Part shown: in pieces, positions 41,024 through 63,115 of the stretch
Numbering within the stretch: the first letter of the stretch is position 1
Layout: each line of letters begins with the position of its first letter
NCBI GenBank assembly: GCA_009801085.1
Contig: VNWV01000003.1
Coordinates: forward strand, 1,240,001 to 1,304,000
Length of the DNA stretch: 64,000 nucleotides
DNA from: Lasiodiplodia sp. COLG20
Lineage: Eukaryota > Ascomycota > Dothideomycetes > Botryosphaeriales > Botryosphaeriaceae
Reading direction: 5' to 3'
Translations under genes and position numbers: made by a program
Notes under the pieces: model-generated
Told to the model about the DNA's origin: nothing
What the model saw: the letters and a program-made list of their open reading frames with translations, nothing else
Database searches by the model: none

Positions 41024-43479
41024 ATGGCTGAACCGACGCAGCTGGCTTGTGAGCTCGCCCTCCCCTGCCACCACTGCGACCAAGACGCTGACGCAACCCG
41101 ACCCCCCAGACCGCACTTTGAAGGGCATTGGTATCCTGAACGCAGCCCCGACCTACGACGACCTCCCGGGCTTCCAGAAGTGAGCCCTATTTACCACCCA
41201 AATAATCCAATTGCTCGCGCTGACCCTTGTCGATAGGCCCGAGGGCAACCTTCGCTGCTGCTGCTATTCTCCTGACGGCAAGTACTTTGCCTGGGCGTCA
41301 CCGGAACAGTAAGTCTCGTGCTCCACAGAGCCATCAGCGTCGTGCTAATGGTGATCCAGGGTCTCCGTTATCGACGCCGCGACCGGACACGTCGCTACCA
41401 CGCTGCCCGCAGAGAACGTCTTCGAGCTCGGCTTTTCGCCCTTGGGCACTTACATCATCACCTGGCAGCGTCCTTCGAAGGACGAGAATGGAGATGCTGT
41501 CAAGAACTTGAAGGTCTGGAGGACTATCGATGACGGCGCCGGAGCTGAGGGACAGAGGAGTGTTGTCGGTCAGTTTGTGCAGAAGAACCAGTATGGCTGG
41601 AATCTGCAATACACGAGCGACGAGCGCTTCTGTGCCCGCTGCGTCACGAACGAGGTTCAGTTCTATCAGAGCGGCGACCTGAGCACTGTCTGGAACAAGC
41701 TTAGGGTTGAGGGCGTGAGCGACTTCGCTGTCTCGCCGGGCAAGAACCATTCGGTTGCTGTTTTTACCCCCGAGCGCAAGGTGCGTCTACTTGCTACACT
41801 GCTTCTCATTTCTGTCTAACCTTACTTTAGGGTCAACCCGCCAGCGTCAAGGTTTTCCTTGTGCCGCAGTTCCAGTCGCCCGTTTCGCAAAAGACCTTCT
41901 TCAAGGGCGACAAGGTGCAGATGAAGTGGAACAACCTTGGCACCAGTGTCATTGTGCTTGCTCAGACCGATGTCGATAAGACCAACAAGAGCTACTATGG
42001 AGAGACGAACATGTACATTCTCAGCGCTAACGGTGGATTTGATGCGCGCATCACGCTTGGTAAGTCAATCACGATAGACTGCGTTTTGAAGATGCTAACT
42101 TCAATGAAGACAAGGAGGGTCCTATCCATGATGTGACCTGGTCGCCCAACTCGAAAGAGTTCGGCGTCGTCTACGGATACATGCCGGCCAAGACTACCAT
42201 CTTCAACCAGCGTGCAGTTGCCACGCACAACTTCCCTCTTGGTCCGCGTAACACCATCCTCTTTTCTCCTCATGGCCGCTTCGTTCTTGTTGCCGGCTTT
42301 GGAAACTTGGCCGGCCAGATGGATATCTATGACCTGGAGAAGGATTACGCCAAGGTCTGCACCATTGAAGCATCCAACTCTTCGATCTGCGAGTGGAGCC
42401 CCGACGGAAAGTATATCTTGACGGCTACCACCAGCCCGCGCCTTCGCGTGGACAACGGCATCAAGATATACCACGTTACCGGTGGCCTTCAGTACTTCAC
42501 CGAGTTCAGCGAGCTGTACCACGTCACCTGGCGTCCTCAGTCAATTGCTCAATACCCGTTGGATAACCCGCTTGGTTCGATTCCGACCCCCCACGAATCT
42601 GCTGCCAAGTTCCTGGCTACTGTGAAGGCTCCTACCAAGCCTGCCGGTGCGTACAGGCCCCCGGGTGCTCGTGGCACCAGCACGCCTCTTCATTTCAAGC
42701 GCGAGGATGAGGGTGGTGCTGCGTACATCAACACGGGCATCTCTTCTACCAGTGGCAACATGAACGGACCCGCTTTTGGCCGTAACCGCCGTGTTGTTCC
42801 TGGTGCAGAGGAGCATGTCCCGGCAGGTGCTGCTCCTGGTGGAGGTGTCAGCCTCTCGGGTACCGGCGAAGGTGCCGACGAGGGACTGTCTAAGGCTGCT
42901 TTGAAGAACAAGAAGAAGCGTGAGGCCAAGAAGGCGAAGGAGGCTGCTGAGAAGGCAGCTGGTCTCAATGCTGGACAGCAGCAAGCCAACGGAACCGGCC
43001 CTGACCGCAAGGCCCGCAGCCACTCGCGCAACCGCTCCCGCAACTCGCAAGATGCTCGCAACTCGCAAGATGCTCGCAACTCGCAAGATGCCCGCAACTC
43101 GCAAGATGCCCGCAACTCGCAAGATGCCCGCAACTCGCACGATGGCCGCGCTCCTTCTCAGAACCGTCGCGGCAACTACCAGCAGAATCGCAATGGCCAG
43201 GGCCCCGGCCAGAACGGTCAGCGCAACGCCGCTCCGATCCAGACTCAGCAGCCCGCGCAGCAAGCTGCCGCTGCCGCTCCGGAGCTCACGGTCACTTCGC
43301 CTATCGGTACCTCGCCTCAGGACAAGAAGATCCGGTCGCTGATGAAGAAGCTCCGTGCCATCGACGACCTGAAGATGCGCCAGGCGAACGGCGAGAAGCT
43401 CGAGGATACGCAGGTCAAGAAGATCAACACCGAAGACTCGATCAAGAAGGAGCTGGATGGGCTCGGTTTCCACGGTTGA
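41024..43479 (+). CDS. Translation initiation factor eIF2A, 728 aa
   Basis: Six exons: 41024-41048, 41110-41179, 41237-41308, 41360-41780, 41831-42059 and 42110-43479. The introns are 61, 57, 51, 50 and 50 nt. The joins read MAEPTQLAYRTLKGIG, LPGFQKPEGNLRCC, WASPEQVSVIDAAT, TPERKGQPASVKVF and ARITLDKEGPIHDV. Residues 1 to about 430 form the WD-repeat beta-propeller typical of eIF2A, with CEWSPDGKYILTATTSPRLR and YHVTWRP. The tail is disordered, with basic Lys-rich helices (LKNKKKREAKKAKEAAEK) and a C-terminal helical segment (KKIRSLMKKLRAIDDLKMRQ). Members of this family bind the 40S ribosome and take part in non-canonical initiation. The protein should be cytosolic. An unusual hexapeptide array lies in the tail (see the repeat entry). 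Identification is secure. Confidence 0.95.
43042..43149 (+). repeat. 18-nt tandem repeat in eIF2A (five NSQDAR plus one NSHDGR)
   Basis: Five units of AACTCGCAAGATGCYCGC and a sixth divergent unit sit in the disordered tail. Units differ only at one silent C/T site, which suggests recent expansion. Confidence 0.92.
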
Positions 43480-47025: not shown

Positions 47026-47220
47026 GGCGGAGAGGTAAGGATGGTGTGGGCGGCGGTGGTTGTGTGGAGACGGCAGCTTCGTCGCTGAAGCTTTGAACTT
47101 TCCCGCGTCGCGTCTCCCCGCCGCGCGCTGCTCTGCCCAAGTCCGACAACAAAACAAACCCGTCGCACCGGACCATGCCCCGCCACCCACGAAGATCTCC
47201 ATGAGCCCGACAGCCCCTCC
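47026..47220. promoter_or_regulatory. Bidirectional promoter, nup37 / apc1
   Basis: Only 195 bp separate the two start codons, so both core promoters and leaders must lie here. No TATA box is evident on either side. The sequence is GC-rich with pyrimidine stretches. Confidence 0.75.
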
Positions 47221-50200
47221 ATGGCCTCCATTCGCTCTCTGGGTGCCCGCACCCCCGCCGCCCTACCATACCTAATTCAAGAGGGAATCCTGCCCGAAGA
47301 CGCCCTATCCGACGCCTACACCTGGTCCACATACAGCGATGACGATGGAGAAGAGGAGGTTACTGCGACGGAATACTTTGTGGTCTGGTCGCGAGGAGGC
47401 ATTATTCGCAAGGCATACAATTTTGAGGTCGAGGGAGAGAAGGTGCTACAGGCCGTCCTCACCTGGTTTCCTTCCGGCGAGGCCAACGCCCTGCGCAACA
47501 CCACTCAGGATTTGAGGCAAGATCATGGTCCGGGGACATTGTTCGCCAAAGACAGGGTTCGTGAACCCGGTTATCCTGCGCATGAGGAAACCGGGCCTAG
47601 CAAGCGCTCTCGAACAGATGCACCGCCGGAGAAGCTTTCCCGCGCGCTGGTCGTCTTCCTTAAGACGCAGGCCCATATCTTCTTTCTTGCAGGATCCAGC
47701 CATGTAGTCAATCTGCCGTTCGAAGTGGAACGTGTCTTCCCCGCGCCTCGAGGCCTGCTCATCCAAAGAAAGCTTTCAATGCCGGATTTCATCCCCGTCA
47801 GCCCAGCAGTACCAAGGGTTCCGCCTAATTCCTTTTTCTCTCAGCTCCCAACCCAGTCCTTTTCTCAAAATTCGAATTTGTTCACGCCAATGATCAACAC
47901 CTCTTTCACTACTCCCCGACGTGCTAAGTCGGGACAAGCCACCGCCTACCCTGCATCTCTTGCCGACCTCCTCAAAGTTGGGACAAGTCCGGCTGCAGAC
48001 GGCTTGCCTCGCCTGTTCTCTTTTACCGACCCATTCTCCGAAATGGGATTGGTGGTTGCCGCTCAGTCACAGGCCACTAAGAGCTCATGGTCTGTAAAGC
48101 AATCCGGGTCTAAGCCTCTTGACCCTGTAGACAGAGCTGAAGAGGTGCTTTATGTCACCAAACAGAATGAAATGTCGGATTCCGCAAACCCTGCAGACAA
48201 GCCATTGATTCTGGTTGTAACTGTCAATTATGAGAAGCGGTTTTACTCTGTCTGGTACGCATCTTACATCGAGCCCAAGCCAGCGTCAGCAAAGAAAAGT
48301 CGTCGCAGCTCCACGACCCTGTCTGTTGGTCGTTCTCGTCGGCGAAGTTCTCTGCACCCAGGAACCGGGGCTACAACGCCCGCTCTTAGGACCAGGGAAG
48401 GGACAAGAGACAGCTTCGGTGGCCCCGGCCGAGGCTACGGAACCAATTCATTCACTGCGAGCCAGACACGTGAACCCAGCAGCGAACATCAGACTGCAGA
48501 AGAAGCATTCGCATCTCAACTTGATCCAGAGACCGACCTCGCTAGGCAGCCTACCAGAGAATCTAGGCGCGTCAGCTCCCTACTCTCTCGAGCCGATCTT
48601 TCGAGAAGTTTCGACAAATCCGCCTTTGAGCAGGCTACACATCGCAGCAGCATAGGAAGCAGCTTTAGTCACAGTCGAAGAGGGACATCCATTGGCGGTC
48701 ATGGATTGCGTACAAGCCTTGGCCCCAGTTCTCGGCCAGCATCCCGAAAAATGAGGGCATCTACTCCGGGAGATGTTTCACAGATCAGTCTGAGCGCTGT
48801 TTCTCTGGAGGATACCTTGGACGATGATTTAGATCTTGACAATACCATCGATGATTCAGAAATTCCTGACGAGCTCCTCGGTGGTGACGGAGAAGATGCG
48901 TCTGGTCTGCAAGAGCCTATTGAGGGGCTGCGCCGGGAGCTGTTGTTGGTCAAATTCTCCGAATTTCCCTTCGGTACATCCGAAAGCATCTTCCATTCTT
49001 CCGTGCATGGAAACCCAATGGTACGTTGCATTAGATCTGTCATATGTGCATCTACTGACGCCTTTCTAGGAACCACCTAAGATTTTTACCTTAAAAGCTC
49101 CTAGGTCATTCACCGATTCCTCTCTCAATGATGGACACTTCTTTCTCTATATGATGCAAAAATCGAAAGGCGAACTTGTCGAACATGAATTCACTGTTCA
49201 ACGAAGGCGGCTTACGCCAACCCCTGCATCCAATATTGGTGGCTCAAAATCAAAAGAGCCGCATAACGTCCTTATCCCGACTGCGGTTAACACTCGGCGC
49301 CAACGAGATTTCATTGATGCAATAAAAATTTGCGACAACGATGTTCAACGAGTCCTGTGTCTAGCCCGAGACGACTCGGGAGATTCGCTGTCCGCGGGAT
49401 GGTGCACACAGGCGCGGTACACTCTCGTTCTTCCCAGAAGATTCAGGCTGTACAATCCTTACTCGATCGGGTTCAGCCTGCCCATGCAGGAAGCTATGGA
49501 GGATCCAAACCAGTCGATTGGAACCCCTGAAGATCTGACTGCCTTGGCGCATGCTACAAGGAATGGTAGTGTTGACATAAAGGAAGGTAACGGACGATAT
49601 CACCGCTTGCAGGTCAAACTCTGGCCACAGAATGCCATGGTATCCCGAGTCCTTTCAGCCTGCCGCTTGATCCTACCTCCACCTCAGGGCGACCATTTGC
49701 TGGCGATTTGGTGGAACATTTCCCGCAATATGCGCAACGAAATGCGTTTTGATGTAGAATGGGCGGCTTTGGTCGCATCCATTTTTGCCTTTGGCGTTGG
49801 CGGAATAGACCCGAAGTCGGTTCGACTCACTGACATCACGCGCTCTGTGGAGGGCACCCCAAGTAGGCGGTCACTCAGACGGCCGGCTGCTGATGACCCC
49901 TTCGAGCTGCTGTGGCGCTACCAGAGCCAGGATCCTGCTGCCAAGAGCTGGGACGGAGCCGCATGGTCTTGGGTGGAGCAGACTCTGGCAGAAAAAGCTA
50001 AGCCTCGCACATCAACCAGACACTCTCTACTTTCTCCATCGACCAACTACGGCATCAAGAGGAAAAGCGATTTCATTCCGTTCTGTGCTAAGGCTGCCCG
50101 CGATTTCCTTCAGGAGCCTTTGGCGAAGAAGATTCTCCCAGAGACAGCTGGAAGGTCAACTCGTACTAAGCATCAGGACTCTCATGCCAACTACCTTCCA

Positions 50201-53200
50201 TCTATCCTTGTTGCCCTGCACCTGCTGCGTGAGGAGGAAAAGTTGAACATTCTGACAAAAGACACTCGATCATCCGAGACTGGTAATCTTGCCCCTGTCC
50301 TGGCACAGCTTGGGCGCTGGCTTGATTGGGAGTTCTGGGATTGGAAGATCACCAGCCCATATGGCCTAGATGGCGCAAGTTTAGATCAGTGGGTGTTTGA
50401 AGATGGTAAGTTCCAATATTTTACATGCAGCTCGACTATGGATTCGGGCAGATGTCAACAACATCAGCTAACTACTTCCAGCTTCAATTACCACCGTCAC
50501 ACTTCCCCACCCCCCCTGGGAAAAGCCGCCTTCGATATTCGACTGGCTGGAGAGGATGCTTGATCCGCGTAGATACCAAGGTTTCCCGACTTTGGACATG
50601 CTGGTTGGACAGCCAGAGAAACCTCAAACCTCGCATGACTCTCAGTCCCTTGCTGACGCAGTCACTGCTTTAACTCCGCGTACAGTGGCATTGTGCAAAT
50701 ACCTCGCAAAGATACGACGGGGGGAACAAACACCAAGTTTGCAGGTTGAGACAATGCTGGCCAGCGGAATCGACACTCGCATGCTAGAAACATTCCCTTC
50801 GGCTGTCGTTGCCGGAATTCGTGAAGCAATTGTCGAATGCCAGTCCAATCCGCCAACCACGTGGAACGAAAGGCTCCTTGAGATTGTCGGTAGAGAGGAC
50901 CTCACCACGCTGCTCAGACCAGACACTGAGTGGTCTCCAAGCTCAACTTCTTTAGTTGTGAGTATTCCCACCCTATCCATGGCTACATTCCTAACGGACA
51001 AAGTCTGCTCCTGGCATTGCAAGTCGCGATGTGCATACTATTTGCCAGTCCGCAGAGGCCAACGACTCCTCTCAAAGCTCTTCCGAAGCCGACAGACACA
51101 TGATCACGCGGCTCATTTTCAGCGAAGACCGGCGCTACATTGAGGCTCTACGTCTTCTCGAGCCACTTCGCCCTGCTGTTGCCGAGTGTATTCCGGATCC
51201 TTCCTGGACAGAAGCTGAACATCTGGATGCGCAGAAGAGCGTTATGCAATGGGTTATGCTGAGAACCTTTGCATTGCCATCAGGGCACTCGATGCTTCAA
51301 TTTGATAGCAAGAGACCTCTCGTCACAGAGAAGTACCCACTGCATGGCTTCACAACGCTGTGCACCATGAAACCTCTCAACAATACGGTTAGTGCGGATC
51401 GAAGCACATACACCGAGGAGAAGTTTGCATGGGCCTTCTTCCATGCGGGTGTCTCAGCCGGTCTAAGCATCTCGCGCCGGGCCAAAGGCATCGATACGTC
51501 GTGGATTGCATACAATAAGCCCGCAGAACTCAGCAACAAACACGCAGGGTTGCTGTTCGGACTCGGCTTGAACGGCCACCTGAAAAATATTGCCAAATGG
51601 CTGTCTTTCAAGTACCTTACACCCAAGCATAGCATGACATCGATTGGCCTTCTCCTTGGCCTTTCTGTCTCATATATGGGCACCATGGATACTCTGGTCA
51701 CCCGCTTACTCTCAGTGCACGTCACGCGTATGCTGCCACCCGGTGCGGCTGATCTCAACTTGCCTCCTCTGGCGCAAACGACTGGCCTAATGGGTATCGG
51801 ATTACTTTACCTGAACAGCCAGCACCGAAGAATGAGCGAGATCATGCTCTCGGAAATTGAACATGTCGAGCTCGAAGATCCTTCGGCGCCATCAGACAAC
51901 ATACGGGATGAAGGGTACAGACTTGCAGCTGGATTCGCTCTTGGGTTGATCAACCTCGGCAATGGGAATGACCTCCGCGGTCTTCATGATATGCGTTTGG
52001 TTGAGCGGCTCCTTGCGGTTGCCGTTGGGCACAAGCCAGTCGATATTGTCCACGTTCTGGATCAAGCAACTGCCGGTGCCGTCATCGCCATAGCTTTGGT
52101 GTTCATGAAAACTCAGAACGCTTCGGTGGCCCGCAAGATTGACGTACCAGACACGCTCCCTCAGTTCGATTATGTCCGTCCGGACATCTTTCTGCTCCGA
52201 ACGCTTGCCAAGCATCTAATTATGTGGGATGATATTCAGGCAGACTACAAGTGGATTGTTGCGAATCTTCCACCGGAGTATGGAGTCAACCACAAGCTCA
52301 CAGAGATCAAAGCTCTTCGAAGTGAGCATATGCCTTTTTACAACATCATGGCCGGCCTGCTTTGGAGCATCGGACTCAAGCATGCGGGTACCGGAAACAC
52401 CAAAGCTCGAGACTTTCTGGTCACCTACCTCGATCAATTCATCCGACTCTGCCACCTACCCGCCATTCGATACGACGCCCGTCTCACCCGCAACACCGTG
52501 CGAAACTGCCAGGACTTGATCGCCCTCTCAGCCGCAACCGTCATGGCGGGCACCGGCGACATCGTGGTCTTCCGCCGCCTGCGCCTGCTCCACGGCCGCG
52601 TCAGCCCAGACGTGCCGTACGGCTCGCACTTCGCCGCGCACATGGCCCTCGGCGCGCTCTTCGTCGCCGGCGGCAGCTACACCTTCAGCACATCCAACCT
52701 CGCCATCGCCGCGCTCGTCTGCGCCTTCTACCCGCTCTTCCCGACGGACGTGCTGGACAACAAGGCGCACCTGCAGGCGTTCCGGCACTTCTGGGTGCTG
52801 GCGGCGGAGCCGCGCTGCGCCGTGATCCGCGACGTCGAGACGCAGCGCGCCATCGCCATGCCGCTGGTCGTCACGTTCCGCGACGGCTCGACGCGGCACG
52901 ATTACACGGCGCCGTGCCTGCTGCCCGAGCTCGACTCGATCGCCACCATCCAGACCAACTCGCCCGAGCACTGGCCCGTCACGCTCGACTTCGTCGCCAA
53001 CCCGGCCCACCTGGCCGCGTTCAAGCGCACGCAGACCATCCACGCGCGCCGCCGCCCCGCGCACCTGTCGACGACGCTGGTAGCAAACGGCCAGCGCTAC
53101 CAGGACCGCACCTTCAACGCTACCCTCACCGCCCTCAACGACGCACATCTCGCCAACGCGGCTGTCGCGGCGTCCCGTGCTGGCATCTTGTGGGACTGGA

Positions 53201-53721
53201 TCTTCTCCCTGCCCGCCCTGCGCGGCGGCGAGCATCACCCTCACCCTGCAGCGCCTTCTTCTTCTTCCTCCACTACTTCTCCCTCGACCTTCCCGCTTCC
53301 GATCGTTAGCAAAGCAGACGTCTCCGCCCTCATCATCCCGACTGATGCGCTGCCATCGTTTCCTGGCGCCGGCGCTGGCGCGTCCGCTGCGCTGGTGTCT
53401 TCGTCGTCGTCCGGTGCTATTGGAGGCTCTGGTGCTGGTGCTGCTGGTGGGAGTGGAGGTGGCGGTGGCATCGAGTTGCTGACGGATGGCAAGACAAGTC
53501 CGGTGGACGAGCGGCTGGTGCTGCGGACGGCGGCGCTGAGGGGGTGGGATGCGGATGGGTTGAGGAACTTGCGGTTGCTGTTCAGGTGGGTGGAGAGGGC
53601 GGAAGAGGAGGCGGAGGAGGGTGGGGCGGCGAGTTGTCGGTGGTTGGGTAGGGAGGTGGTGGAGGGGCTGAGGGCCGTGGTCGGGGAGAGGGGGAGGGCG
53701 GTTGGTGGGGGGGTTGTGTGA
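47221..53721 (+). CDS. apc1: Anaphase-promoting complex subunit 1 (BimE/APC1), 2109 aa
   Basis: Four exons: 47221-49020, 49070-50405, 50482-50957 and 51004-53721. The introns are 49, 76, 46 and 48-class short fungal type; only three are present (49, 76 and 46 nt). The joins read GNPMEPPKIFTLKAP, FEDGASITTVTLPHPP and TSLVSAPGIASRDVH. The N-terminus (MASIRSLGARTPAALPYLI, then VVWSRGGIIRKAYNFEVEG) is the APC1 propeller start. Ser-rich loops (residues about 340-560) carry many SP/TP and RRxS sites. Proteasome/cyclosome repeats lie at about residues 1380-1620 (KHAGLLFGLGLNGHL, TTGLMGIGLLYLN, YRLAAGFALGLINLG). ADRSTYTEEKFAWAFFHAG and KGIDTSWIAYNKPAEL are typical of BimE. APC1 is the scaffold of the cyclosome ubiquitin ligase. 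The length is close to Aspergillus BimE. The last 200 residues are Ser- and Gly-rich low complexity, and codon use there becomes extremely GC-rich. Confidence 0.95.
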
Positions 53722-54026: not shown

Positions 54027-54479
54027 TCATGACGTTGGAGGGAATGATGTTGTTTTTAAAGTGCGAAGCGATCCGGTATAGACGCGGTATTCGGCGACTT
54101 GGAAGAGTTGCTCTGAGCTCGACTCCGTCCCATAACGAGGAAAATCGAAGCCGTGATGGTCGTGGAAGTGTGTGAAAGTTGGGTCGAGGTGATACGGTTC
54201 GGATGGAGGATAAGCGATGGTGGTCATGTTTGTTTCGGTGTTTTGTTCTGGGAGCTGTCAGTCTCTCTTAGTGCATTAAGGCTGAGAAGTAGAACATTTA
54301 CCTCGATTATGTGACCGAAAAAGCATAGAGAAGTTGCGAAACCGTCTGCGGAAGATATAGCCGATGCATGGAAAGATGACAGTAACGAGAAGGGTGACCA
54401 AAGCAAGGAGAGCTTCTTTGGACCATCCGGAAGATTGGGCGGTAGGCTGAGCCGCATTGCTGACTAAGATGGCACCCAT
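54027..54479 (-). CDS. Small single-pass membrane protein, GWSKEAL family copy A, 132 aa
   Basis: Model: exons 54479-54302 and 54247-54027 with a 54-nt intron (GTAAAT...CTGACAGCTCCCAG). Residues 1-20 are polar (MGAILVSNAAQPTAQSS). The motif GWSKEALLAL then leads into a transmembrane helix (LVTLLVTVIFPCIGYIF), with a basic stop-transfer segment RRRFRNF behind it. By the positive-inside rule the tail faces the cytosol. The tail exon encodes EQNTETNMTTIAYPPSEPYH and later HFHDHHGFDFPRYGTE, SEQLFQVAEYRVYTGSLRTL. The acceptor was chosen because it joins in frame, and the same join gives an EQ start in copy B. An acceptor 7 nt earlier would give a longer, less protein-like tail. Copies B and C follow upstream on the same strand. 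I recognise no named family. Confidence 0.72.
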
Positions 54480-56198
54480 GGCGATGAAGTTGGAGACAAG
54501 AGAATGACAGGAAAAATGTTGATTCGAATAGCAGTGAACTGGGCTGAACGTGCCGTAGAAGAAAGAAGCTATATATCTCAGAGGTACCGTACCCCGGATG
54601 CGCAGCGCAATAAGATGAGACCGGCGCCTCGCCGCCAGAGCAGGGAATTTGGCCTGTGCTGGACACCACACTGCGGTGCACGGGCCTCCCGCCCGTCAGC
54701 CGCTTCTTTCCCTCCGCGGCCGCCTGAAACGTCGGACAGCGAGCGGCGGCAAAGACTTCTCTGCGAGCATCGCTCGGCTCCAGCGTTGTGGAAAATTTGT
54801 TGCCAGGAGGCCGGCCCAATTACAATCCCTGTCTGTCACCATCGCTGGCAAAGTTCAAAACTGCTGGCAGCCTCGAGCTCCACCAGCGCACTGATGAGAT
54901 GCCGCGCAGCCACACAGCCAATGGGCGATTGGCCGCGGGCGTATCGCGGTGGGGGAACTGACTAGCAGCCGACTGAGCCTCCTTCTTCTGCCCCAGTCCC
55001 CAAGCAACAATCTTATTACCCACCCCTGCTCAATGCCGAAAGTAGTAATCCAACTGGTGCTGGCCGCGACGAAGTGGATGTTCAGATTTCCTGACCGCGG
55101 GCGCACGCACGTGCCCCGAGTGTGCTCGCATGGCAGTGGGTCTCTGTCCCTCTCTTTTCAGAATGCATCAATCACGCCGTGCTGCCGCTTCCACGCATCA
55201 ATTTGGATCAGTCCCTCACTCACGGTGCGAAGCAACAGCAGCTGCGCGCCATTGCAGATGCATATGATGTTTCTCGCAGCCAAGCCGTTACATACGAGCG
55301 GCCTCCGTGCCAGCAAATCCATTCGCTTAGCCAGAGCTTAAGCCCACCACCACGTTTGATCTGCACTTCCTCCCCGCCTCACCGCCCACAGTGTTGCACC
55401 TCGACAAGGGGCCAAAGTCGGGGACGAGTCGGTATCGCGATCTATTTGGACGCAGAAGCGGATCAATCGACGGATTGGGCGCGTGTGCCACAGCGATCAA
55501 GCTCCGCATAGGGTAATTCTCGAACTAGGGGCGACGCGTCGCGGACCCGCCCGCGTATTCACCACGCTTCCCGTCAGGGGCGATGCGAGAAACCGAGCAG
55601 GCTGATGAGTGATGATCGCAGTAGTAGCTATCAGCAGTCATCAAATGATTAGCTATTCGCGGCCTAGGGCCGACGTGAAACGAGCATCCTGGTGGGGGCA
55701 CAGGCCTCAAATGCGAAGCTCCTATGCGGGTGCTGCCTAATCCGCCAAAACGAATGCTAGACAGATCCACGGCGAGGGTATAGAGAGAAGGGGGAGGCGC
55801 CTCCGGGCGGGCGCACACCCGGTCTCGCGAACGGTCTGTGTGAAGATTATTGTTCGCGTGAGGGCGGCTTACCGCGTCCACGTGTTGTGGCACAAGGCTG
55901 AAAGGTGAGATTGTGGCTGAGTCTTCTGCTCTTGTCCGATACCGCCAATTGCTGTTATACGCCAAGACGTATTTCATGTTTCCTGCCGCTTCGAACATTT
56001 GGGTTCTCGAATTTATGCATGGCATTGTGGTCAAGTTCTTCGGCTCAGCAGAGAATAGGGAAACAGTGCTTTTTGTATAAACGCCGGCTAAAAATAGACT
56101 AACATCCCAAAAAGGTTACATGCAGCGGCATAGCGTGCTGGGTGTTTTTGGACGTCCTGGAATCAAGCAGGCAGATTACCCGACGATGCTGCTGCATC
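54480..56198. other. Intergenic between family copies A and B
   Basis: Holds the promoter of copy A. A 169-codon minus-strand frame (55525-56034) and several plus-strand frames have no recognisable content. No RNA gene is seen. Confidence 0.45.
54570..54578 (-). promoter_or_regulatory. TATA-like element upstream of copy A
   Basis: TATATATCT on the plus strand (AGATATATA on the coding strand) lies 91 bases before the start. The identical 9-mer occurs upstream of copies B and C. Confidence 0.5.
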
Positions 56199-56690
56199 TC
56201 ATTCCCCAAACTGTCGGCTATTACCGGTCGTGCTTGAGAATGGTGATGTCCGCCGTGATGTTGAAGAGGATGAGATTCTCAAGATGCGGCGTGATTCAGT
56301 ATGCACTTCAGTCACTTCCAAGAGGTGACTCAGCGGACGGCCAACAGGGTAATGCTCGTGGTAATTGGCGAAGGAAGGGGGCCGGCCGCTGGTGTGATAT
56401 GTTTTGACAGGTCGAGGGATCATCGCCCTGTTCGCTTCGGAGACTTGTTCTTCACACCATTAGCACTTCTCCAGCAAGGCTAAGGTTTGATTCTAACCTC
56501 GATTTAGTGGTAGAATACAGGTGCCGCGGTAACGAAATTGTTTGCGAATAATGTAACCGGCACATGGAAGAATTATTGAGATAAAGAGAGCGATTAACGC
56601 AAGAAGGGCTTCTTTAGACCAGCCGGACGATTGGATATCAGGCTCAGGGAGGGAAGGCTGAGACGAATTGCCTAATAAGACGTTGCCCAT
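56199..56690 (-). CDS. Small single-pass membrane protein, GWSKEAL family copy B, 147 aa
   Basis: Model: exons 56690-56498 and 56449-56199 with a 48-nt intron (GTTAGA...GTGCTAATGGTGTGAAG) that has a good CTAAT branch site. The N-terminus (MGNVLLGNSSQPSLPEPD) resembles copy A (MGxxLxxNxxQP). Then come QSSGWSKEALLAL, the helix IALFISIILPCAGYII and the basic RKQFRYR. The intron falls 18 residues after the GY that ends the helix, in phase 1, exactly as in copy A. The tail starts EQVSEANRAMIPRPVKTYH and contains FANYHEHYPVGRPLSHLLEV, then a Ser/Arg-rich end. A weak match to the tail of copy A (HLLEVTEVHTESRRILRI versus QLFQVAEYRVYTGSLRTL) suggests common origin. An in-frame ATG six codons upstream (56708) is the alternative start. 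Confidence 0.75.
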
Positions 56691-56814
56691 GGCAGTGCAG
56701 TTGCTCATGCTCGAGAGCGGCCGTGGCAAGAACGTGTAGTCGAGGGTAAAAAAGAAAAACAACAAAGATCTCAAGAAGATATATGTAGTAATAACGAGGG
56801 GTGGTCAGCAGACA

Positions 56815-56823
56815 TATATATCT
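56815..56823 (-). promoter_or_regulatory. TATA-like element upstream of copy B
   Basis: The same TATATATCT 9-mer (plus-strand sense), 125 bases before the start of copy B. Confidence 0.5.
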
Positions 56824-57213
56824 AGTGGTCAACGGAACAAGGACACGGGCATGGCGGGCGCGCCTCTCTCGCTCTCTGCAGATGTACACACCCATTCGAC
56901 GCTGCGGAGAGAGCTGGGCGCATTAGGCTTACAGGGATAGTGGTCATGTCAGAAGGAGTTATGAGACAGCTGCTCTGGGATTCGTGGAGGTTCCTCGATA
57001 GTCAGCAAAAGGTATCTCAAACGACTCTCTTACCGGCGTATCTCATAAAGACTTATACCTCGGTCCTACACGTTAAGGTTATGGAGGCGGGCACAGCCGC
57101 AGGCCTGATCCTTGTCGGTCCGGAACGGCGTGCGACCGCGCACCGAGAAACGTGGCAGATCCCAGATGACTTCGAGAAGCGTCGGCTGTGCATAACTTAG
57201 ACGACGGCAGGCA

Positions 57214-57257
57214 CGAACGTGGCTGATCGCCCCAGCGAACGTGGCTGATCGCCCCAG
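57214..57257. repeat. 22-nt tandem duplication
   Basis: Two perfect adjacent copies of a 22-nt unit beginning CGAACGTGGCTG. No coding role is visible. Confidence 0.85.
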
Positions 57258-58637
57258 CTGACGCGGCGGGCAGCGCCCGCTGCAGAGCCGCGGTGGCCGC
57301 GGTGGCCTCGAGTCATTTTTCCTATCCGCCCGCTGCTGCCGGCCGGTAGGCGCGCCGCCCGTCAGCGACAGCCTCCTCAGATGCCGAGACGCCGGATTCC
57401 ATGCCGCAGGCCTAATTCCAGTCACCAGGAAACAGCGCCACGCGCCCATCTCACGACTGACGCGTCCTGGCCCCGGGCACGACTATGGCGCCTTGCAAGA
57501 TCGGTTTACACCCGTAAACATCAAACATCTGTACTGAGCCTCCATTACCTTTCTCCATGAATTTTAATAAAAGTCTGACTATAATATAGTTATTATTAAG
57601 CTCTATCTTTCCATATAAAATTTATTAGAATTTATAGTCTCTACGTAGTGTAAAAATGCGTTTTGTAAAAAAACAACTTCGACTCGTGTAGTGCTCCCCC
57701 TTCCACTACCCGGCGATTCCTCGGTGCGCGCCGCAAAAGGCATTTTCTGGACGGTCGTTCATAAAACCGATCCTGCAAGGCGCTGTAGCAGATCCTACCT
57801 ACATAACGCCGCACCGGATCCCAATTTTCCCGAAATGCCGCCCGCCGGCCCAAAGTCAAGTCGCCCGGGATGCCGCCCCAAAACGCCCGTGCCGGATCAC
57901 GGTCACTTAGAAATGCCGTCCCACTCAGCTAAGTGACAAACCGGGTCATACACACGGTGGCTTCGAGATAGCAACCCGGACGTCGGGATCTGCCTGCTCG
58001 GGTCACATCCAGCCGAGTTGTACCCTATTTTCTGTTCTTTGCTGCCATGGCGTGAACCCTTTTCACATGTGTAGCCATCAACTGTCCCTTCCAGTACATA
58101 ATCATCGTATGTACTTCCCTCCAACCACGCAACCTTCCCTGCCTTGCCCTGGGATTTTCCTCTCCGCAGCCTCTGCATTCGCCCTTTAGAACACCTCACG
58201 AAATCTTCAAAGCGGCACAGTCTCCAGCGAAACACGCAACACCTCTTGGCTTAAGGCGCGAAACGGTCTAATGGCTTTCAAAGCTGATATTACCTGAACT
58301 GTTAAAGTTCTTTAAAGTACTTACGTCAGGAGTTTTGCTGCTGTGGAGCTCAACCCCGGCCGTACGCTGCGCAGTCCCCCGTCTGAGTCTGGCATAGTCA
58401 TTACTGCTCATTTCGTCTGAATGTATTGGAGCAAGGCTGGCTTTCACTTGAAAAAAAAAAAAAAAAAATCAAAGCCATCAAGTTGTTTAGAATCTCTCAT
58501 CTATCAGCTATCGCCTCGAAAGCCCTCGCTAAACCAGTTTTACTCGTAGCCGTCAAAGCAGTGCTGCGCAGGCGTTCCCCGTACCCGTCGGTCGGTCATG
58601 AGAACCGATACACACAACAAAATTTTCATGCGGAGCC

Positions 58638-59136
58638 TCAACACCCAACTTCACCGTTCTGCAGTCTCCAAAGTTCCTCCCAGTCTGAATTTTGGGCACG
58701 CGATGCATCGAAGGGGCAACCATAGCAGGGCAGCTCGATAAGAACGGTGTCTTGTGCGCGTCGTGGGCATGCCGCCTCTAAATCTGACCCTGCTTTGCGT
58801 CAATTGCTTTCCGTTGGCCAAGAACTTGGAGCAACCGGCTTACTAGGCTGACGTTTGGTGCGACAGCGCCACAACTTTCCAACCTTGTGGCGCAGGAAAT
58901 ACGCAGCCACTGGTAGCATTGCCGAGGTCATCAGGCCTGTCAAAGCGATGAGGGCTTCTTTCGACCAGCCATTCGAAGTATCGCTTGCCGAGGCAGACCT
59001 TGTCAAGAGCAGCGTCGGAAAAGATGTATCCCCTACCCAGACGTGAGTACTAAACTTATGGGGTTGTCATGTTGCTTGCTAAAGGTTACTTGCCGTTCAT
59101 GCGATCCATGCCCTCATTCACCAGGACTTCAGTCAT
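58638..59136 (-). CDS. Small single-pass membrane protein, GWSKEAL family copy C, 127 aa (model)
   Basis: Model: exons 59136-59094, 59032-58844 and 58789-58638. The core reads SNGWSKEALIAL, then the helix TGLMTSAMLPVAAYFL and the basic RHKVGKLWRCRTKR. A strong donor (CCTA|GTAAGC) lies 18 residues after the AY that ends the helix, in phase 1. This is the same place as the intron in copies A and B. The 54-nt intron ends GCAAAGCAG. The tail exon (SDLEAACPRRAQDTVLIELP, then CYGCPFDASRAQNSDWEELW) carries a C-X2-CPF motif and differs from tails A and B. There is no ATG in the frame just before the core, so an upstream intron is needed. Best is a GC-AG intron of 61 nt giving MTEVLVNEGMDRMNG|DTSF; a 40-nt GT-AG intron is the alternative. 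If the tail intron is retained the protein ends at 58800. Confidence 0.58.
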
Positions 59137-60540: not shown

Positions 60541-60960
60541 AAGCGCAAGCAGCTTACCAAGCAATCAAACAAGCAGCTTGCAAGCGGCCTTAGAGGGCCC
60601 GCTTGATTAAGTTTCAAGCTCAACGGGGTGAATACCCCCGCTTGTTCGCAAGCGCTTGTCAAGCACAACTCCTACTATACTAGGTTTAGCTCCTATCCGA
60701 AGGGGTATCATCGGCCTCAGAAAAGACGTAAAGATAAGAATCTCCGTAAAGCCGAAGTCCCAATGATGTCTCTTCTAGTAGGAGCTAAACCTAGTATGGT
60801 AGGAGTATAACGTGTATATACTTGACAAGCGCTTGGTAAACAGTCAAGCAAGCCAAGCGCAAGCAGGCCTGCTTGTTTGGTTACCCTGAGAACCCCCCTC
60901 TGCTTACAAGCGACCCCCCCGGGCCCCGCTTGCGCTTGGTAAGCAGATCAAGCGCGACCC
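60541..60960. mobile_element. Foldback / MITE-like element with long inverted repeats
   Basis: Two arms face each other around an 85-nt centre (60695-60779). The inner arms 60668-60694 and 60780-60806 (ACTCCTACTATACTAGG... and its complement) match with one mismatch. AAGCGCTTGTCAAG (60649-60662) has an exact complement at 60821-60834. The outer parts share GCTTACCAAG/CTTGGTAAGC and many CAAGCG/CGCTTG units. No coding capacity is present. This is the form of a non-autonomous DNA transposon. Ends and target duplication were not fixed. It lies about 140 bases upstream of the HET gene start. Confidence 0.75.
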
Positions 60961-61098: not shown

Positions 61099-63115
61099 AT
61101 GGATGTCGACATTCAGCCGAGCTTGTGCAGTGCCTGCCAGAAGGTTTCAGTCAGCGCATTGAGACCTAGCCATTTATTTAAATATGGGCCTGCCTCACAG
61201 CTTGAAGAAAGCAATTCAAGTTGCGATCTCTGTGCGGTCATTTTGTGGAGCTTAAGATATGACAGAAAGCACTTGGGTGAAAAGCCTGTTTACCTTTTTT
61301 TACGCTCCCGTGACCGCCAGCAGCCTTTTCAATATCTGGATGTTTACGTTGAAGGATATAATGACCTATTCAGGTTGGATGAGCAGGGTGAACCCCTGTG
61401 TGAAGACTTTATTGCCAGTCGCCTCACTCTCGAAGGACCTCGTATGTATTTCCAAATGATAATGTACTTCTCGTGTTCCCCGCATTTGACATGTTGCAGG
61501 AGCAAAATGTTTAAACGAATTCACCTACACACCGATCAATCCCAACCCTGGTTCTATTGAATCTTTGCAACTAATCAAAGATTGGATGTCTTCTTGTCAA
61601 AATCTCCACGGCGACTTCTGCTCACAGCATGAGAGCTTTCCGCTTCCTACGCGCCTTATCTATGTCGGATCATCACCAGGCTCTACATCGCCACAGCTCA
61701 AAATCACAAAAGATCTTCCTTCTGATGGATCTCTCCACGAGTATGTTGCGCTAAGCTATTGCTGGGGTACGAAACCGTTCATCAGAACAACGACCAGTAC
61801 TTTGGCATCTTTTCAAACTTCACTACCTATGGATGAACTCCCACAGACCATTGTTGACGCTATACACATCACCCGTGGTCTTGGTATCAATTACTTGTGG
61901 GTTGATGCACTTTGTATCATCCAAGGAGAAGATAGTGCAGCAATGAGCGATTGGCAGCGTGAATCCACACGAATGCGGGAGTACTATCAAGGGGCAAAAC
62001 TCACCGTACTGGCATCTTCTGCATCTGGAGCTCACGATGGAATCCTCGGGCAAAGAAAAACAACATCGCACTCCGCCATGATCAAAATCGACCCGGACCA
62101 TCTAAGTACCGTAGAAAATCTCGCCAGGATTACTCCGTACATCGCAAGCCAGAGAAACAGCATCGAACCACTCGACCGTAGAGCCTGGGCGTTACAGGAA
62201 AAGCTTCTTTCCACGAGAAGAGTCGTCTTTGGGTCGTCTCAGCTGTCCTGGGCGTGCCAAATAACATCTGGTGATGAACAGGAGCCATTTCGTTTTGAGT
62301 CCCCCGGTGCAGATGTCAAATCTGACAGGTCTCTGAGTCCGATTGAAGTCAAGGCCAAGGGCCTGTATGAAAACTGGATGTCTGTTGCAGAGGATTACAG
62401 CGATCGCAATCTGACTTACCTCTCAGATAGGTTACCTGCCTTGAGTGGTCTGTCAGAGTATATCCAGAGGACCGTCGGAGATTCGTATGTCGCAGGTCTT
62501 TGGCGCAGGCGGATGTTGAGGCAACTTCTGTGGATTCATCAGAGCGCAGTACATGACCAAAACACATTCGAGTCTTATACAAGAAGTCCTCACACGCCGA
62601 CGTGGTCGTGGATTTCAGTCAATGGAGCAGTCAAATTTCACGATTGCCAGACGAATGTGACTGCGAAAATAATACATTGCGCAAGAGAACGAATTGGCGC
62701 CGGAGGATCTTTATCACCGCTCAAGGCCAGTATAGTGGTGCTAGGGTGGGCCCAAAAGATGACGAGTATCAGGTGCAAATCTAAGGGCCACTACTATGGT
62801 TGCTACGAGCATTTCTCTCCTTGGATGTATTATCCAGAAGATCTCAAGACTTATCTCGACTGTCTTTCATCCGTACCCCCGCGAAGACGACAATTATCTA
62901 CGGACAGTCCTCACGAAGCTTTGGGTGTTTGGTTCGTTGCGCTCACGGAAGACTCGGGCCTGATACTGGCACGAAATACGCAGCCCATGACATTGAGCTT
63001 CGGACTGGTACCGTACATCCGGATTGGAATGTTTCATGGGTATTGCCTGGCCGCAGAAAAGGATTGGAAAGGAGGCTACAAGTCTTGGAAGAGACGATTG
63101 TTTTGGATTGTGTAG
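61099..63115 (+). CDS. HET-domain (heterokaryon incompatibility) protein, 652 aa
   Basis: Two exons, 61099-61441 and 61500-63115, with a 58-nt intron (GTATGT...GTTGCAG). The join reads LTLEGPRAKCLNEFTY. The start is the ATG of MDVDIQPSLCSACQK. The N-terminal region has the paired cysteines usual in this family (CSAC, CDLCAVIL). The HET domain begins at YVALSYCWG (residues 196-204), continues through YLWVDALCIIQ (246-256) and DWQRESTRMREYYQGAKLTV, and reaches RAWALQEKLLSTRRVVFG. No NACHT, WD or ankyrin domain follows. The C-terminal 300 residues are the ordinary extension seen in single-domain HET proteins. Such proteins can trigger cell death when strains of different type fuse, but most family members have no known role. 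A foldback transposon lies directly upstream and may affect its promoter. The frame is intact. Confidence 0.94.

Follow-up and report, generated by a model that had tools for sequence, protein, structure and literature searches.

Results

Three related genes on one strand

The window analyzed here is a 64,000-nucleotide stretch of the genome of Lasiodiplodia sp. COLG20 (C23:1240001-1304000). It carries three small genes, called A, B and C, all on the minus strand, which very probably belong to a dispersed family of predicted single-pass membrane proteins. The coordinates of these genes are window positions, and other loci of the same genome are labelled contig:position (contigs C1, C2, C12, C23, C34, C45 and C46). 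The genes were modelled with the following parts:

54302-54479, minus strand: gene A helix exon, from the start codon to a phase-1 donor (GTAAAT), with GWSKEA from about 54428 downward and a hydrophobic helix at about 54410-54354
54248-54301, minus strand: gene A intron, predicted, 54 nt, GT-AG
54027-54247, minus strand: gene A tail exon, starting EQNTETN and rich in His, Tyr and Pro
56498-56708, minus strand: gene B helix exon, with a second ATG at 56690 and a hydrophobic helix at about 56603-56547
56450-56497, minus strand: gene B intron, predicted, 48 nt, GT-AG
56199-56449, minus strand: gene B tail exon, starting EQVSEAN
59094-59136, minus strand: gene C short first exon (MTEVLVNEGMDRMN), predicted, ending in phase 1 at a GC donor
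58844-59032, minus strand: gene C helix exon, starting and ending in phase 1, with a hydrophobic helix at about 58952-58896
58790-58843, minus strand: gene C second intron, predicted, 54 nt, GT-AG, other acceptors being possible
58638-58789, minus strand: gene C tail exon, with the family motif CPFDASRAQNSDWEELWRL at 58718-58662

The product of gene A has 132 amino acids (54479-54302 plus 54247-54027), that of gene B has 153 from the first ATG or 147 from the second, and that of gene C has 127 (59136-59094 plus 59032-58844 plus 58789-58638). An earlier description of this DNA, the sequence-only reading, had pointed out three minus-strand loci with a common G-W-S-K-E-A-L helix exon and products of 132, 147 and 127 residues. 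Its coordinates, frames and possible introns check out, and the lengths hold, the 147 of gene B being counted from the second ATG. It was right, too, in placing a phase-1 donor 18 residues past the Tyr that ends the helix in all three genes, where the codon is split after its first base, in noting that the tails of A and B start with EQ, and in its C-X2-CPF motif, present in gene C as CYGCPF. A, B and C have this spacing of 18 residues in common; the models at C34:72637 and C12:2510605 have 15 and 20, respectively.

As modelled, the first intron of gene C has a GC-AG boundary, and alternative donors and acceptors also preserve the frame. The GC-AG intron is favoured because five relatives (C34:72637, C2:601409, C2:604308, C2:605922 and C2:659788) have first exons that share this phase at their end and stop at a similar place. 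Counting gene C, 6 of the 14 models of the family thus have a short first exon with a phase-1 end, and these six first exons support the unusual intron.

A genome-wide protein search with the core of gene A as query detected gene B with an E value of 1.6e-12 and gene C with 3.7e-4, values that point to a likeness among the three genes beyond chance. By sequence, A and B appear as clear duplicates and C as a more distant copy, and a 40-base stretch downstream of the stop codons of both A and B is 73% identical.

A family dispersed over the genome

The genome (43.5 Mb, 88 contigs) was searched with single members as queries. At least 14 members that could be modelled and one relic were found, with A, B and C among them; this count is a lower bound, since the search scores the best candidates only. 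The three genes, which the sequence-only reading described as a three-gene array, belong instead to a family scattered over the genome. Four of its members make up another tandem cluster, at C2:601-608 kb, and these, like A, B and C, all lie on the minus strand. The modelled members outside the window lie at C34:72637, C12:2894608, C12:2510605, C2:601409, C2:604308, C2:605922, C2:607786, C2:659788, C1:4535491, C1:4310967 and C45:1883575. These 11 additional models and the relic had gone unnoted before, as had the short first exon in phase 1 and the fact that the tail of gene C is the common one. Across the family the models range from 82 to 153 amino acids. We consider it highly likely that the family exists as described.

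The putative relic, at C23:1377147-1377242, some 73 kb past the end of the window, is interrupted by an in-frame TAG where the core begins; it is probably a decayed copy and is described here beside the 14 models, not among them. A weaker match (E 0.06) at C23:3477628-3477846 is a hydrophobic stretch with a basic tail, without the S-x-E and the Pro of the core and with a stop nearby, and perhaps represents a remote or decayed relative. Three other sites were dropped: the pattern match at C46:20506, where a stop follows shortly and there is no helix, and C2:861750 and C1:8116085, which have no family core.

The tree of the family resolves few relationships, with 2 of its 11 inner branches well supported and 8 drawn open. 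Only the pair A and B and the two C1 members reached the support mark, and the pair C2:601409 and C2:605922 came near it (92/90). Upstream of the genes, TATA[AT]A is found 40-250 bases before the first ATG in four of 13 members (A, B, C12:2510605 and C2:601409); of random 210-base stretches taken from the window, 3.1% have it. C12:2894608, for whose model the start codon was not found, was excluded from this count.

A conserved membrane exon

The core of the helix exon, 29 residues long, has a Pro and an Arg that are invariant in all 14 models; its Ser and Glu are invariant too, the core alignment having been anchored on them. In free alignments that include A, B and C, no variation was seen at the residues S, E, L, P and R, either among 10 members or among 12. 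In every member a single stretch stands out as strongly hydrophobic, the same measure showing no other; S-x-E precedes it and a basic stretch comes after it. The constant single-helix membrane exon of the sequence-only reading is supported. Lys and Arg are commoner after the helix than before it in 13 of the 14 members. Basic flanks stay on the cytosolic side according to the positive-inside rule, and the basic C-terminal flank would therefore place the tail in the cytosol. From these features we infer small type-III (N-out, C-in) single-pass membrane proteins.

The helix exon ends at a phase-1 donor in 13 of the 14 models (C2:604308 has only a weak donor), a count that was not blind, as acceptors had been chosen partly by the presence of the tail motif downstream.

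Coding constraint and outside relatives

In the core of the helix exon the proportion of synonymous change (pS) exceeded that of nonsynonymous change (pN) in all ten chosen pairs, out of the 78 possible among 13 aligned members. For the pair A and B, pS was 0.82 vs a pN of 0.17, and the differences at the three codon positions were 9, 2 and 18 over 29 aligned codons. Saturation is close or already reached at the synonymous sites, which makes these ratios rough. Since synonymous exceeds nonsynonymous change in this exon, the members are probably real spliced genes, as had been claimed for A, B and C, whose conserved intron phase is supported too, and purifying selection seems to act on the family.

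Outside the genome, four proteins turned up that are near-orthologues of three members other than A, B and C. C12:2510605 is matched by P0001 (96% over 50 residues) and P0002 (97% over 62 residues), C2:601409 by P0003 (85% over 71 residues) and C1:4535491 by P0004 (93% over 70 residues). All of them look like unspliced frames. The tail segment of P0003 shows three replacements in the unspliced frame, and their cheapest coding requires three base changes, deduced from the protein and not from its DNA, all of which would be silent in the spliced frame. With gene A alone as query the outside protein search gave two candidates, neither at an E value of 1 or better; the ten-member alignment gave three matches among 1208 candidates, and an alignment of eight helix-exon frames gave one among 562. 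The family is probably restricted to one fungal lineage, a provisional conclusion because the matches look unspliced and the fungal coverage of the protein searches is uncertain.

Tail exons

A Trp is conserved in the tails of 10 of the 14 members, that of C45 having been equated with the family Trp by eye. In six of these ten the tail fits the strict form [SC]PF[ED]A[ST]xx[EQ]xxxW[EQD]E[IL], and the other four are looser around the Trp. The tails were evaluated with a leave-one-out profile, built from nine tails and scored on the tenth against 1000 shuffles. The tail of gene C reached 20.9 bits, the best of its shuffles being 7.7, and no shuffle reached the score either for C34:72637 (34.7 bits), C12:2894608 (33.6), C2:601409 (45.5), C2:605922 (41.5), C2:659788 (25.8), C2:604308 (17.3) or C45 (9.7). 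For C2:607786 (12.3 bits) one shuffle of 1000 did so, and the score of C12:2510605 was weak (4.2 bits, 20 of 1000). The tails of gene A (-2.2 bits, reached by 674 shuffles) and gene B (0.1 bits, reached by 97) lie outside this profile.

Since knowledge of the motif had guided the choice of the modelled tails, a blind test was also run, which scored the 600 unspliced bases after each helix in three reading frames and compared them with 996 stretches drawn at random from the window. The best frame of gene C gave 20.7 bits, a score reached by none of the random stretches, and eight other members were each reached by one. The random stretches come from the window that holds the gene C tail, itself part of those eight profiles, and the single stretch reaching them may overlap that tail. 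The scores were reached by 35 stretches for C12:2510605, 252 for A, 662 for B, 151 for C1:4310967 and 958 for C1:4535491. In all ten tail-bearing members the best blind frame was the modelled tail. Protein searches of the genome also matched the tails of other members, at C2:601159 (E 3.6e-9), C2:604040 (E 0.009), C34:72436 (E 0.018) and C12:2894397 (E 0.079).

The tails of A and B are homologous to each other, with an alignment score of 60 that none of 1000 shuffles reached. A tail starting with E-Q is common to A, B, C12:2894608 and C2:601409, and in C1:4310967 it follows one Leu. In the models of the two C1 members the tail is only about a dozen residues long. A search of the genome with the whole gene B protein found no other site with the B tail, its reach being limited, as it missed the A tail too; a weak match to the region of the B tail at C1:8116085 (E 0.13) is without the family core. 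By these comparisons the CPF tail of gene C is the ordinary tail of the family, and those of A and B deviate from it, as we read it, through divergence or loss. The swapped tails of the sequence-only reading are not borne out, since the tail of gene C fits a profile made from nine other members and those of A and B are homologous.

Database and literature comparisons

None of the three window proteins matched a Pfam family above its curated cut-off, in agreement with the earlier reading, to which no named family with this pattern was known. Among ten family members, compared by E value, none had a Pfam match better than E 0.01. The HET (heterokaryon incompatibility) domain (PF06985) was matched by none of the three window proteins or the ten member proteins in these scans, and a PDB search matched no family. 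The gene C protein gave hits to Sid-5 (PF17204; E 0.11, 13.1 vs a cut-off of 27 bits) and to RDR6 RBD (PF24572; E 0.01, 16.4 vs 27 bits), both taken as chance because they lie below the cut-off and were found in one of ten members. A literature search gave no publication describing the family, judging by titles and the openings of abstracts.

Surroundings of the genes

Pfam assigns the following neighbours to the window:

47089-53721, plus strand: APC1 (anaphase-promoting complex subunit 1), three frames, on the low-coordinate side
42064-43479, plus strand: eIF2A-like frame, a housekeeping neighbour, as is APC1
61490-63115, plus strand: HET domain gene, on the high-coordinate side

HET domains form a large expansion in this genome: a first look gave 429 candidates, 150 of them were scored, and the matches number at least 150. 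The HET neighbour carries no weight because these domains are so abundant. The C2 cluster is flanked by COG3, RCC1-like, iPGM, TPP-enzyme and Med9 genes, and no neighbour gene was common to the window and this cluster among the frames scanned (8 and 9, respectively).

Two other elements were seen in the window. Between B and C, positions 57214-57257 hold two identical 22-nt units in head-to-tail order. Beyond gene C, an inverted repeat at 60668-60806 has 47-nt arms, 83% complementary and 45 nt apart; a DNA search of the genome with it found this sole location, and it is not an obvious repeated element.

Discussion

A putative docking tail on a membrane anchor

The best overall explanation we can offer, held tentatively and with more doubt than belief, is that these are membrane-anchored docking-peptide proteins with Atg8 as the likeliest partner. 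The helix and the basic stretch would anchor the protein in the membrane, and the acidic Trp motif would hang in the cytosol as a short docking peptide. That the tail is a docking peptide is a prediction for which we see nearly as much reason for as against. Its binding to Atg8, for which we hold out little confidence, would proceed through an Atg8-interacting motif (AIM), W-x-x-I/L flanked by acidic residues, comparable to WEEL, the core given for yeast Atg19 in PMC7564124. The proteins would then serve as membrane tags for selective autophagy, and A and B, which have no motif, would be decoys, competitors or retargeted versions. In its fullest form, with lineage-specific, multi-copy, minimal Atg8 adaptors of one helix, an AIM near the C-terminus and about 80-150 amino acids, and with A and B as motif-less derivatives, we judge the proposal improbable; such adaptors would give a filamentous fungus an enlarged set of autophagy tags, rich in paralogues.

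The xLIR expression (published in PMC5119064) fits five of the 14 tails, always at the conserved Trp, that of gene C among them and those of A and B not. Several observations weigh against binding to Atg8. The same source cautions that the expression gives many false positives; it also fits 3-12% of shuffles per tail, and the five matching tails share descent. Ile, Leu or Val stands at +3 from the Trp in 8 of the 10 Trp tails, which speaks for the motif, but the count is open to selection, as the filter for candidate tails included W..[LIVA]; the frames chosen with this filter were recovered identically by the blind scan. The Trp tails of C2:607786 and C45 are without such a residue at +3, and 4 of the 14 tails (A, B and the two short C1 ones) are without the Trp motif. 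Conservation, moreover, exceeds the six-residue core and includes SPF.AS, which a bare AIM does not need. The AIM match is suggestive only, because the tails share ancestry and the filter named W..[LIVA].

Other explanations

The length of the conserved tail segment, about 20 residues (SPF[ED]AS...WEE[IL]) and more than an AIM core, would suit a small structural element whose partner is some other protein of the membrane or the cytosol, with no part for Atg8; the family could, for instance, supply a regulatory subunit of a transporter or of a trafficking complex. We regard this as a considerable possibility, short of a probable one, as no Pfam or PDB match supports it, no neighbour was common to the 8 window frames and 9 frames flanking the C2 cluster scanned with Pfam, a partial look, and the hydrophobic moment gave no signal of an amphipathic helix in 8 of 8 motifs (lowest shuffle fraction 0.097, at 100 degrees). 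It is also conceivable, and in our opinion unlikely, that the orphan family is young, duplicates fast and has little in the way of a fixed function, its genes being kept by drift or as selfish or noise-tolerant elements. The deep divergence of the paralogues in a tree that resolves little, the in-frame stop of the copy at C23:1377147 and the few outside relatives found are what such genes would show; however, the helix exon bears signs of purifying selection, the intron phase and the tail motif are conserved, and the tail of a relative can be read with silent changes only.

Two further explanations seem very improbable to us. A constant membrane module could have exchanged its tails by exon shuffling, as the helix exon starts in phase 1 in six members, ends in that phase in 13 and could thus be shuffled, and the tails of A and B fall outside the family profile (-2.2 and 0.1 bits); but 10 of the 14 tails fit a single profile, one of them weakly (C12:2510605), and divergence explains the tails of A and B because their E-Q start matches that of relatives and both are homologous. 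Neither do we give credence to the family as the partner of the neighbouring HET gene in an allorecognition module: a HET-domain frame begins about 2.4 kb from gene C, but with at least 150 HET matches in the genome such a gene near any locus is unremarkable, and a scan of 9 frames next to the C2 cluster, out of 19 with at least 150 amino acids within 14.1 kb, found no HET domain, the HET match at C2:584177 lying some 17 kb from that cluster.

Meaning and comparison with known systems

What began as a curiosity of three genes becomes a definable orphan family with a consensus, consisting of the helix exon, the phase-1 boundary and the WEE[IL] tail, whose genes annotation could easily miss because each exon is short. 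If the tail does bind Atg8, this would mean that receptor-like autophagy tags can multiply in a fungus as a gene family that evolves rapidly; if it does not, a clear orphan family remains, seemingly under purifying selection.

Atg32 and Atg39 of yeast are single-pass proteins. The Trp motif of the tails that carry one may be of the W-x-x-L type by which the yeast receptors bind Atg8, both the membrane ones (Atg32, Atg39 and Atg40) and the soluble ones (Atg19 and Atg34). According to PMC7615515, Atg32, Atg39 and Atg40 are located on organelles and use AIMs to bind Atg8. Pfam shows no kinship between the family and these receptors, with which no direct sequence comparison was made. Unlike them, the proteins described here are 82-153 amino acids long, carry the motif near the C-terminus and exist in many divergent copies, and their binding to Atg8 is only predicted.

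Filamentous fungi also have lineage-specific orphan families of small proteins, short and present in dispersed and tandem copies. The present family resembles these in being short, seemingly restricted, both dispersed and in tandem, and without a curated domain, and it differs from orphan fungal families in general in that a common exon plan, a conserved membrane exon and a conserved tail motif can be defined.

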